The notes under the pieces were generated by a model that had not been told where the DNA came from, ran no database searches, and worked only from the letters and a program-made list of their open reading frames with translations. Source: Vagococcus penaei (GTDB taxonomy: Bacteria > Bacillota > Bacilli > Lactobacillales > Vagococcaceae). Taken from it: DNA of 64,000 nucleotides. Position numbers and translations under genes: made by a program. Positions 43,182 to 46,256 of the stretch are shown in pieces; positions within the stretch are counted from its first letter, which is position 1, and every line of letters begins with the position of its first letter. The stretch is taken from assembly GCF_001998885.1 (NCBI RefSeq), contig NZ_CP019609.1:124001-188000 (forward strand), read 5' to 3'.

Positions 43182-43222
43182 ATAAAAAAACTTACATTGA
43201 TCATAAAAAACAATGCAAGTTT
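43182..43222 (-). terminator. Terminator of the disordered-protein gene upstream of murC
   Basis: AAACTTGCATTG / CAATGTAAGTTT (one G-U pair, 11-nt loop), then TTTTTTATT on the minus strand. The first arm overlaps the stop codon of the 43221 gene. Confidence 0.8.
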
Positions 43223-43985
43223 AATCGAAATAATGACCGGCAGACGATGTATTTTCATCAGCCATAATACCACTTAATGATTTATCTAAACGCTGATGTT
43301 TATTTTCATTCTTTGGTTCAGTCGCTGTTTCCAAATAATCTGGGTCAAATGCCATTCTAAGTTGATTTTCATCAGCAGTTTTACGAAGTTCTGACATTAA
43401 TTCCTGCTTGTTTTCGACACTTTTTAGTTTTGTATCATAAGTATCATCAATCATAGATGCTGGAATATGTTTGGGTTTAAAAATTTTGCCTTCGTCGTCG
43501 CCTGGCAAATGATAACTCGATTGAAATTGTTGTCTTGAACGTCCACGGTTTTGATAACGTGCTTTACCAAGTCGATCTGTTTCTACTAATCGATTGGAAA
43601 AGTTCGACTGCTCAGACTTCAAACTATTGGATTTATTACCCGTTGTATAATTTTTTTGCGCAATTTTTTTATCAGGCAAAGTCAAATGTTTCTCATGAAA
43701 AGGTGTTTTCGCCTGAATATTTCGCGATGTTCTTGGTGAGCTATACACTTGTTTCTGACTTTCCATTCGGTCAGATCCAAAATAATCTGGCTCATCAGTC
43801 ATCTCAACAGGGTCTATTTCTGACTCTTGACTAGATAAGTTAAATTTTGTTCTATGGACAAAACCATCATCTAAGAAATCTTGAAATAAATCACGTTCTT
43901 TTTTAGTTTTTAATTTTACACCTTCATCATCATCATATGCAGGAAAACGGAAGTGTTTTCTAGTTCTTGACTGTCTTTCCATCAT
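43221..43985 (-). CDS. Hydrophilic, largely disordered protein of unknown function
   Basis: This 254-residue protein has no hydrophobic core, is rich in K, R, S, D and N, and has scattered short conserved-looking pieces: RKHFRFPAYDDDEGVKLK at the N-terminus, PDYFGSDRM, KHIPASMIDDTYD, and MAFDPDYLE near the C-terminus. There is no membrane segment and no enzyme motif. The location next to murC hints at a cell-division or envelope adaptor, but that is only context. AAAGGA lies six bases before the chosen ATG. I do not recognise a family. Confidence 0.6.
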   Translation of the reverse strand: MMERQSRTRKHFRFPAYDDDEGVKLKTKKERDLFQDFLDDGFVHRTKFNLSSQESEIDPVEMTDEPDYFGSDRMESQKQVYSSPRTSRNIQAKTPFHEKHLTLPDKKIAQKNYTTGNKSNSLKSEQSNFSNRLVETDRLGKARYQNRGRSRQQFQSSYHLPGDDEGKIFKPKHIPASMIDDTYDTKLKSVENKQELMSELRKTADENQLRMAFDPDYLETATEPKNENKHQRLDKSLSGIMADENTSSAGHYFD

Positions 43986-44032
43986 TATCATTCCTTTTAA
44001 TTAACTAGTGCTAGTTTATCACAAGTGTATCT

Positions 44033-44070
44033 AAAAAAAAAGTTTAGCCAGTCACCCAGCTAAACTTTTA
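44033..44070 (-). terminator. Terminator of the 44068 membrane-protein gene
   Basis: On the minus strand AAAGTTTAGC, a 10-nt loop, and GCTAAACTTT followed by TTTTTT. The stem starts at the stop codon. Confidence 0.85.
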
Positions 44071-44400
44071 GGTTAAACTATGGAATATTTGCCATAATAC
44101 TGGAATATACACATCAAAAATAGGCGCTAAAATACAAAAAGCTATAACACTGAAAATTAATACACCTATTACTACGCTACTAATTTTACGAGATTTTCTT
44201 AATATCATAAATATTAGCAATATTAGCATACTAATAACCAAAATAACCGCAAGTTCTTTTGATGCCACATCAATTACTTGATTATTAGCTAATTTTTTGA
44301 AAATTTGAGAATAAAAAAACCACACTAATTCAATCACATAAAACCCTAATATCAAATACAAGATTGGACCATATTTTTTATTAGTATTTTTTTTAACCAT
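44068..44400 (-). CDS. Small integral membrane protein
   Basis: This 110-residue protein has a basic N-terminus (VKKNTNKKYG) followed by three hydrophobic helices (about residues 12-30, 48-66, 76-95). No recognised family. The ATG after GGAGGAAGAGAAA is preferred to an upstream TTG inside the ribosome site. It stands alone between two terminators. Confidence 0.65.
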   Translation of the reverse strand: MVKKNTNKKYGPILYLILGFYVIELVWFFYSQIFKKLANNQVIDVASKELAVILVISMLILLIFMILRKSRKISSVVIGVLIFSVIAFCILAPIFDVYIPVLWQIFHSLT

Positions 44401-44520
44401 TTTCTCTTCCTCCAATGTAATTATAAAACAAAGTATATCAAATAAACTATATAATGTTAATTAAATTTTGCAGTTTATTACAATGTACTTTGGTTAAAAC
44501 TAATATAATTTTAATTTTTC

Positions 44521-44549
44521 ACACAAGTAAGCGCTTAATATGTTATAAT
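44521..44549 (+). promoter_or_regulatory. Promoter with cre-like palindrome ahead of the candidate sRNA
   Basis: A perfect TATAAT lies at 44544-44549. The -35 region is weak (ACACAA at 44521-44526). Between them is TAAGCGCTTA (44528-44537), and the 14-mer AGTAAGCGCTTAAT matches the cre consensus at most positions. CcpA binding there would occlude RNA polymerase. Confidence 0.55.
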
Positions 44550-44555
44550 CCTTCT

Positions 44556-44624
44556 ATGAATAAACTATAAGGTGCAAACTCCCCCTCCCCCTAAAAATTT
44601 GCGCCTTATGGTTTTACTTTTTTT
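44556..44624 (+). ncRNA. Candidate small regulatory RNA with C-rich loop
   Basis: A transcript from the TATAAT at 44544 would be only about 65-70 nt: a short 5' tail, a 17-bp stem (44562-44578 with 44598-44614, two G-U pairs, otherwise perfect), a 19-nt loop CTCCCCCTCCCCCTAAAAA, and a terminal T-run at 44615-44624. No open frame fits. C-rich single-stranded loops of the UCCC type are used by Firmicutes sRNAs (RsaE/RoxS, RsaI) to pair with the ribosome-binding G-rich regions of mRNAs. The cre-like element in the promoter recalls CcpA-controlled RsaI. Homology to a named RNA is not claimed. Confidence 0.6.
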
Positions 44625-44753
44625 AATCGACTTCAAAAGCGAATTATTCATCAAAATAATACTAATTAGTTTGTGATAATTCATAAATTTTGCTTTGTTC
44701 GTTTTTTTTATGTTATAGTTAAGATGTTAAATAAATATCGAGGAGGATTTTTT

Positions 44754-44948
44754 ATGACTGATCGAGGTTTTACGGATAAGGTAAAAGGGAAAGCAAAAGA
44801 AGTCGCCGGTGATATCACAAATGATCGTGAGAAAAAAGCTGAAGGTTTGGCTGATCAAGCAGTAGGTAAGGCAAAGGAAATGTCATCCAATGCTAAAGAT
44901 ACTGCAGATGAATTAGTCGACAAAGCGAAGAAAAAACTAGATAAATAA
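44754..44948 (+). CDS. CsbD-family stress protein
   Basis: This 64-residue, highly charged helical protein has the CsbD pattern: DKVKGKAKEVAGDITNDREKKAEGLADQAVGKAKE. Members are abundant general-stress proteins with no defined biochemistry. The ATG follows GAGGAGG. The transcript appears to end at the ISL3-end hairpin directly downstream (44963-45006). Confidence 0.9.
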   Translation: MTDRGFTDKVKGKAKEVAGDITNDREKKAEGLADQAVGKAKEMSSNAKDTADELVDKAKKKLDK

Positions 44949-44951
44949 TAA

Positions 44952-45062
44952 GGCTATATCATTTAAAGGACTGATGAATCAAAAATTGATTCATCAGTCC
45001 TTTTTTAGTCTATTTAATTACCAAACCATTTTCTATCCGAAAAAATTTAAGTACCAAATAAA
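44952..45062 (+). mobile_element. Degenerate ISL3 end (left) acting as terminator
   Basis: From GGCTATATCATTTAAAGG on, this follows the left terminus of the complete ISL3 at 57405: same palindrome GGACTGATGAATCA...TGATTCATCAGTCC, then TTTTTTAGT, then a diverged leader with AAATTTAAGTACCA. The inner transposase is absent. The hairpin plus T6 makes a strong plus-strand terminator for csbD. A perfect 32-nt AT palindrome lies further on at 45113-45144, and nothing else was seen up to 45296. Confidence 0.75.
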
Positions 45063-45296
45063 ATCAAAGCCAAAATGGGAGCTATGCTAGTATTTTGCCA
45101 TATTAGAAAATATTATTTATTAAAAATATATTTTTAATAAATAAGACAATTACCGCTTAGGACTAAGTCTTTTTAACACATAAAAGTAGGATAATCAAAG
45201 ATTTTTAACCTTATAGACTTATCTCATTTTTCTAATTTGACAAAGAATACATGTATCATTGTTTTTTATTTTCAAATCTCTAAATTATCTCTAGCT

Positions 45297-45704
45297 TTAT
45301 ATCATTAATTTTTCGATTCTATCTTTTATTTCATTTCTTGTTTCACGAAACATGCTCATGATTTCTTCTTCTGTTCCAGTAACTTTAGCTGGATCTTCTA
45401 ATCCCCAGTGCTGATGTTCGACAGTTGCCGGTATTACTGGACAATTTTCTAAAGCATCACCACATAAAGTAATCACTAAATCAGCTGAGTTAAGATAGTT
45501 TGTATCAATAATTTCAGACTTGTTTTTACTAATATCAATATTGATTTCATCCATTATCTTTACAGCTCTGGGATTAAGCCCGTGTGCTTCAATTCCGGCA
45601 CTTCTAACTTCCCATTCATCAGAATTTAAGATTGATATTGCTAGACCATCTGCAATTTGACTACGACACGAATTACCAGTACATAGGAAATAAATTTTTT
45701 TCAT
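45297..45704 (-). CDS. arsC: Arsenate reductase, thioredoxin-coupled (LMW-PTP type)
   Basis: This 135-residue protein reduces arsenate to arsenite. The P-loop is [10 protein letters not shown] with catalytic Cys8, and the redox relay pair is Cys81 and Cys88 in [10 protein letters not shown], the arrangement of the plasmid pI258 enzyme. The conserved [11 protein letters not shown] and HWGLEDPAK follow. AAAAGGAG precedes the ATG. Directly upstream on the same strand is a remnant of an ACR3-type arsenite exporter, so this is the surviving end of an ars operon. It may no longer protect the cell without an exporter elsewhere. Confidence 0.93.
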
Positions 45705-45758
45705 TATTATAACAACTCCTTTTGAGTAAACAATTTATCTGGTCATTTAAAAGCTAGG

Positions 45759-46010
45759 TTAACTAATATAGTCAATGAATGTGGAAACCTTAACTAAAAG
45801 ACCAATAATTAAAATAAAAGCTATAACTAAATTAATCAGAACTACTCTAACTTCAATAGCATTTCCCAAATTAACCTTACTACTAGTCAATGTGTTAATG
45901 AACATAATGAAACAACATACTATCACTATCTTAGACAAAAAGAATGTTACAAAGAACATAATAATTGGCATTACTATTCTAACAGGACTTATTAATAATT
46001 CAATATTTTT
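45759..46010 (-). pseudogene. C-terminal remnant of an ACR3-type arsenite efflux protein
   Basis: The minus-strand frame reads ISPVRIVMPIIMFFVTFFLSK, then, after divergence, TSSKVNLGNAIEV and AFILIIGLLVKVSTFI. These follow the order of the last part of ACR3 transporters (IPLxIYFxxMFFVSFFxSK, TASGNNFELAIAV, AFAxVIGPLVEVPVLI), with conserved functional residues replaced and the N-terminal three quarters missing. A 70-codon open frame with an ATG remains (45759-45971), but a functional transporter is not possible. It lies 54 bases before arsC. Confidence 0.55.
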
Positions 46011-46140
46011 TTACAATTATCACAGACTAATTATACGAGACTTGAGCCAATTAGAGAGATAACTTAACCTTTAAACAAGCAATTGATATCTATCGTATTT
46101 AAGCTAATAGAATCATAACGAATTTCCCTAATAAACATCT

Positions 46141-46242
46141 GAAAAACGATGATATAAATTAAAGAAGATGATAAATATGAGGGAAATCTCACATTTATCA
46201 TCTTCACAATTTATCTCATCTATTCGATTTTGACAAAGAGTC
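46141..46242. mobile_element. Degenerate ISL3 end (right)
   Basis: The sequence AGATGATAAATATGAG...CTCACATTTATCATCTT followed by CGATTTTGACAAAGAGTC parallels the right end of the complete ISL3 (58853-58930: AGATGATAAATCTGAG..., ATTTGACAAAGAGCC). Together with the left end at 44952 it brackets the arsenic module. The hairpin at 46163-46204 may also terminate pgi on the minus strand. Confidence 0.7.
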
Positions 46243-46256
46243 TTTTTTACAAATTA

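Follow-up and report, generated by a model that had tools for sequence, protein, structure and literature searches.

A candidate hairpin small RNA with a C-rich loop and a cre-like promoter element in Vagococcus penaei

Introduction

In Staphylococcus aureus, the small RNA (sRNA) RsaI is repressed by CcpA and pairs with ribosome-binding sites through a CU-rich stretch (PMC9266662, PMC8383071); the latter source ascribes two regulatory regions to it. That source also presents C-rich loops that pair with ribosome-binding sites as an established mode of sRNA action, and unpaired UCCC motifs in loops as a feature of further sRNAs, such as the UCCC sRNAs of S. aureus and LhrC of Listeria (PMC8383071).

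Here, we analysed a locus within a 64,000-nt stretch of Vagococcus penaei DNA (the window), for which an initial annotation had proposed a free-standing, glucose-responsive sRNA of this kind, on the premise, in keeping with the literature on this mode, that C-rich loops target ribosome-binding sites. RsaI is also known as RsaOG, and RsaE/RoxS and FsrA likewise carry an unpaired UCCC or CU-rich loop motif. Titles and abstract openings on Vagococcus sRNAs and CcpA revealed no RNA such as the present candidate, nor did those on enterococcal CcpA-linked sRNAs, and a literature search for CcpA-linked sRNAs with a C-rich loop returned none; a study of lactic acid bacteria that deals with 6S RNA reportedly names Vagococcus. 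As detailed below, a small RNA is the best available reading of the locus, which constitutes a plausible, ordinary example of a kind of regulator known from related bacteria.

Results

Fold prediction revealed a plus-strand hairpin (44562–44614) whose arms (44578 being the last base of the 5′ arm from 44562, and 44598–44614 the 3′ arm) form 17 pairs, two of them G-U, around a 19-nt loop, CTCCCCCTCCCCCTAAAAA (44579–44597), which contains UCCCCCU twice. With a fold energy of −19.9 kcal/mol compared to −7.2 kcal/mol (s.d. 2.1) for shuffled sequences (z = −6.1), none of the 200 shuffles was equally stable, and the same helix was recovered in the minimum-energy fold of its 205-nt context (44556–44760). 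Seven T (44618–44624, plus strand) follow as the tract of a putative intrinsic terminator; the TAC that separates them from the stem leaves a 3-nt gap, which counts against the sRNA reading.

Twelve bases ahead of the hairpin lies an extended –10 element, TGTTATAAT (44541–44549, plus strand), that is, a TATAAT at 44544–44549 preceded by TG. Rechecking of the coordinates thus confirmed the TATAAT box, the 17-bp stem with its two G-U pairs, the C-rich loop and the T-run of the initial annotation. The –35 element that it implied was not borne out: nothing resembling TTGACA is recognisable 16–18 bp upstream of TGTTATAAT, and a consensus sigma-70 scan of the window does not contain this promoter in its output. 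Extended –10 boxes of the same type number 11 in the window vs. 7.2 expected, the box alone hence not being rare. Placing the RNA start 7 nt past the –10 box and its end at the T-tract, we infer a candidate RNA of ~69 nt (44556–44624, plus strand), in line with the proposed 65–70 nt, with a leader of 6 nt before the hairpin. As to coding capacity, of which the initial annotation saw none, the putative 5′ end offers ATG-AAT-AAA-CTA-TAA, and a 34-aa ORF starts at the GTG at 44572 and reaches beyond the T-tract; nothing else was found.

To place the hairpin among the terminators of the region, the whole window was screened by script for hairpins of at least 12 pairs, at least three of them G-C, with a T-rich 3′ flank and outside ATG-initiated ORFs of at least 80 aa. 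This returned 20 hairpins at 16 places, four of which carry hairpins on both strands. Four of the 20 were flagged as not following a same-strand gene; of these, we read one as the terminator of a csbD-like gene, which is too short for the ORF cut-off, and two as the reverse strands of hairpins terminating plus-strand genes. By script and by our own reading of the flagged cases, 44562–44614 is the sole hairpin of the 20 without a same-strand gene to end, the genes on its upstream side lying on the opposite strand. The locus combines a promoter-like box, which matches the consensus without a –35 element, with a terminator-like hairpin lacking a same-strand gene to terminate, and this combination fits a small RNA. 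Two of the minus-strand proteins, of 256 aa (43221–43991) and 110 aa (44068–44400), are encoded upstream of murC and had no Pfam match; the former is present in 14 of 14 genomes of the genus.

The csbD-like gene (44754–44948, plus strand; PF05532, 51.9 bits) begins 129 bases past the T-tract on the same strand, an arrangement in which the hairpin could act in cis as its leader or attenuator. We judge this very unlikely, and the gene separate from the RNA, since csbD has, by eye, an extended –10 element of its own (TGTTATAGT, 44711–44719; likewise absent from the sigma-70 scan output) and its own terminator (44965–45003), since a 6-nt leader is too short for an upstream antiterminator, and since the minimum-energy fold of 44556–44760 keeps the hairpin and holds no structure competing with it. 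A C-run scan of loci with csbD homologues yielded a few C-run hairpins (e.g. L094, L097 and L098), none of them alike by eye.

Between the –10 box and the expected –35 position, and centred ~23 bp upstream of the presumed transcription start, lies a cre-like near-palindrome, AGTAAGCGCTTAAT (44526–44539, not assigned to a strand), with the core GTAAGCGCTTA. It shares 11 of 14 bases with the palindrome TGTAAGCGCTTACA, i.e. it has three mismatches. At no more than one mismatch, the core occurs three times in the window compared to 0.62 expected, two of the three being the two strands of this very site. A search of the genome with a CcpA model gave 15 matches, only one of which exceeded the curated cut-off (546.7 vs. 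442.35 bits) and represents the CcpA orthologue.

Genome-wide, TGTAAGCGCTTACA is found with up to three mismatches in 43 places, the reversed control being commoner (89). Twenty-one of the 43 were inspected, comprising all eight with at most two mismatches as well as 13 out of 35 that differ at three bases; the 13 were the first seven in the list plus six picked by hand, and are not a random sample. Six of the eight better matches lie outside ATG-initiated ORFs of at least 70 aa, and one more falls only within a doubtful 71-aa ORF; 11 of the 13 three-mismatch places are inside ORFs (one being a doubtful 77-aa ORF), the two exceptions being the site at 44526–44539 and one other. The 11-base core was listed at five places, namely at the present site, upstream of a 399-aa ORF that begins 41 bases past it (L124), and three times within ORFs. 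Good cre-like palindromes, with one and two mismatches, precede two ORFs of ~400 aa that look related by eye (L124 and L129; positions 1501–1514 of each) and may encode acyl-CoA dehydrogenases; a Pfam search with the 50 N-terminal residues of one of them gave no match.

Given the imperfect match and the location of most inspected sites of its class within ORFs, the argument for the site rests on its position rather than on the match. The near-cre palindrome claimed initially is thus present upstream of the –10 box in a genome encoding CcpA, while its assignment as a cre, at three mismatches, is weak. A repressor bound at this position would obstruct the promoter, and CcpA control of the candidate RNA is possible. 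Rather improbably, the site might instead serve the divergent gene for the 110-aa membrane protein, whose start is ~125 bp away, or nothing at all, given its imperfect match, in which case an sRNA, if made, would escape CcpA. The best promoter-like hexamers of that gene, however, are at 44460–44432, and the site sits in the spacer of the plus-strand promoter-like element.

The loop would be the seed of a trans-acting sRNA: in the predicted fold it presents an unpaired C-rich stretch, and in predicted duplexes this pairs with Shine-Dalgarno (SD) sequences. As a pattern count of putative ribosome sites, GGGGGA followed by ATG after 4–14 nt occurs in 75 places of the genome vs. 24 for the reversed control. 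Complements of 12 loop bases with up to two mismatches are hardly commoner than control (17, own locus included, vs. 15). Duplex energies, calculated for the loop alone against 60 start contexts (some being alternative starts of one gene), disregarding target accessibility and with no shuffled-loop control, were most favourable around the start of a MarR-family gene (−26.2 kcal/mol), followed by kdpA (−23.5 kcal/mol) and a gene for an ArsR-type regulator (−21.0 kcal/mol). Pfam searches with the N-terminal 70 residues of candidate targets returned MarR (25.1 bits; cut-off 24.6), KdpA, ArsR-type and DUF969 matches. The MarR-family ORF is open upstream of the ATG used, so the stretch paired with the loop may be coding. 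As the loop fits many G-rich SD sequences and the predicted targets are mixed in function, we do not claim a pathway.

Conservation of the stem and C-rich loop in relatives, a supporting trait of trans-acting sRNAs of this type and the refutation test set by the initial annotation itself, was not observed in the genomes covered: searches of 13 further Vagococcus genomes, of 28 from the rest of the family set and of 394 in the order sample besides V. penaei found no orthologue of the candidate RNA. The 12-base loop core occurs in one of 14 genus genomes, that of V. penaei itself, and a C-run scan of the regions surrounding the neighbouring 256-aa protein in the genus uncovered no comparable hairpin in the other species. 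A covariance model made from one sequence entered twice, i.e. a structure-aware single-sequence search, covering promoter plus hairpin, matched 17 of 29 family genomes at E ≤ 10 and seven of 395 order genomes (own included) at E ≤ 0.05, where stricter filters lost the match in genome G009. The own locus scored 137 bits and the next two matches, both C-rich-loop terminators at gene ends, 42 and 40 bits. Foreign matches L065–L073, L075 and L120–L122 were folded (L074 and L119, near contig ends, were left unfolded, and L076–L091 were covered by the C-run scan only); other than L065 and L066, none of those folded has a C-rich loop on the matched strand (in L072, CCCC is present on the opposite strand).

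Searching 161 bp against 60 genomes with blastn (E ≤ 1) gave matches in 59, own included, the best foreign one among the matches listed spanning 26 bases (E = 6.4e-4). Ten places touching the cre-like site, promoter or hairpin were inspected (L007 and nine more), and at none of them does a C-rich hairpin come after a cre core. A cre-TATAAT-CCCCC pattern is present in five of 395 order-sample genomes, and the four besides V. penaei have no comparable hairpin. Searches of plasmids and viral contigs gave no match. V. vulneris retains both flanks (87% identity for MurC, 92% for Gpi and 64% for the divergent membrane protein) and by eye lacks the candidate RNA; the content of window positions 44420–46250 (the RNA, csbD and an ORF that by eye resembles a low-molecular-weight phosphatase) is there replaced, again by eye, with a 144-aa lipoprotein-like ORF. 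With no orthologue found on which covariation could be assessed, the argument that the G-U pairs preserve the structure is left without support.

These results bear on the possibility that the locus has no regulatory role, a chance promoter having joined a chance or relic terminator in fast-changing intergenic DNA. Detection in a single genome among those searched, the different content between conserved flanks in V. vulneris, the near-chance frequency of extended –10 boxes and the C-rich loops of gene-terminal hairpins in two further Vagococcus genomes all speak for it. A 17-bp stem that none of 200 shuffles matched in stability, closed by a loop that carries C5 twice, is however unusual in AT-rich DNA, and there is no same-strand gene that could have left a relic terminator; we regard this explanation as somewhat unlikely, though the most serious of the alternatives. 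There is also a slim chance that the RNA is recently born and species-restricted, its terminator loop CCCCCUCCCCC alone acting as a broad anti-SD element under CcpA that dampens dozens of mRNAs with GGGGGA sites as glucose runs out.

Discussion

The odds that a functional sRNA is encoded at this locus are about even, and we give the same balanced credence to the full proposal of a ~69-nt non-coding, trans-acting and CcpA-repressed sRNA that masks G-rich ribosome-binding sites. The sRNA reading draws on the fold z-score, the lone hairpin without a gene, the CcpA orthologue, the position of the cre core, the excess of GGGGGA upstream of ATG and the duplex with the MarR-family start region. Against it stand the lack of a detected orthologue, the missing –35 element, the imperfect cre, the near-chance number of –10 boxes and the control-like number of loop complements. 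The interpretation initially offered is partly supported by the promoter-like box with its gene-less terminator hairpin, the CcpA orthologue and the established pairing of C-rich loops with ribosome-binding sites, and weakened by the absence of conservation in the genomes searched and the imperfect cre. Exclusive production in the absence of glucose, as put forward initially, is an inference.

According to this proposal, the extended –10 promoter would drive a 6-nt leader and the 17-bp hairpin, the latter doubling as intrinsic terminator. The loop would pair with G-rich SD sequences (GGGGGA, GGAGG) of several mRNAs, most likely blocking ribosome binding. While glucose is abundant, transcription of the RNA would be held down by CcpA occupying the cre-like element of the promoter spacer.

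If transcribed and CcpA-repressed, the RNA would represent a carbon-source-controlled sRNA in Vagococcus and would extend RsaI-like logic, a CcpA off-switch combined with a C-rich anti-SD loop, beyond staphylococci to an RNA with just one hairpin. Otherwise, the locus is a modest illustration of how variable intergenic DNA can bring a promoter-like box together with a terminator. As no relative was found, the candidate remains an ordinary one.

Membership in a known family is not indicated: at gathering scores, the whole window had no Rfam match, RsaI/RsaOG included, and a search of 44400–44760 at E ≤ 5 gave four weak matches far under their cut-offs (e.g. rli28, 20.9 vs. 45 bits; mir-586, 21 vs. 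89 bits), none of them RsaOG. The nearest structural counterparts are from two other Vagococcus genomes (L065 and L066; positions 1501–1599 of each), where a 20-bp stem, a C-rich loop (CCCCCTTTCCCTAA and CCCCCTTTCCATAA) and a T-tract resemble the candidate in type. The C-rich stretch in these loops reads CCCCCTTTCCC or CCCCCTTTCCA. Unlike the candidate, these hairpins are flanked on both sides, by eye, by the 3′ ends of genes that run towards each other, with no cre or free-standing promoter seen.

The likeness to RsaI drawn initially stands for the logic, not for the family. CcpA repression and an unpaired C/U-rich stretch there correspond to a cre-like site and a C-rich loop here, whereas RsaI has two regulatory regions and the candidate a single hairpin. 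With the sRNAs bearing UCCC or CU-rich loops, the candidate has in common a C-rich loop, here predicted to pair with G-rich ribosome sites; it differs from them in that its C-rich element, CCCCCUCCCCC, is longer and forms the loop of its only, terminator-like hairpin.
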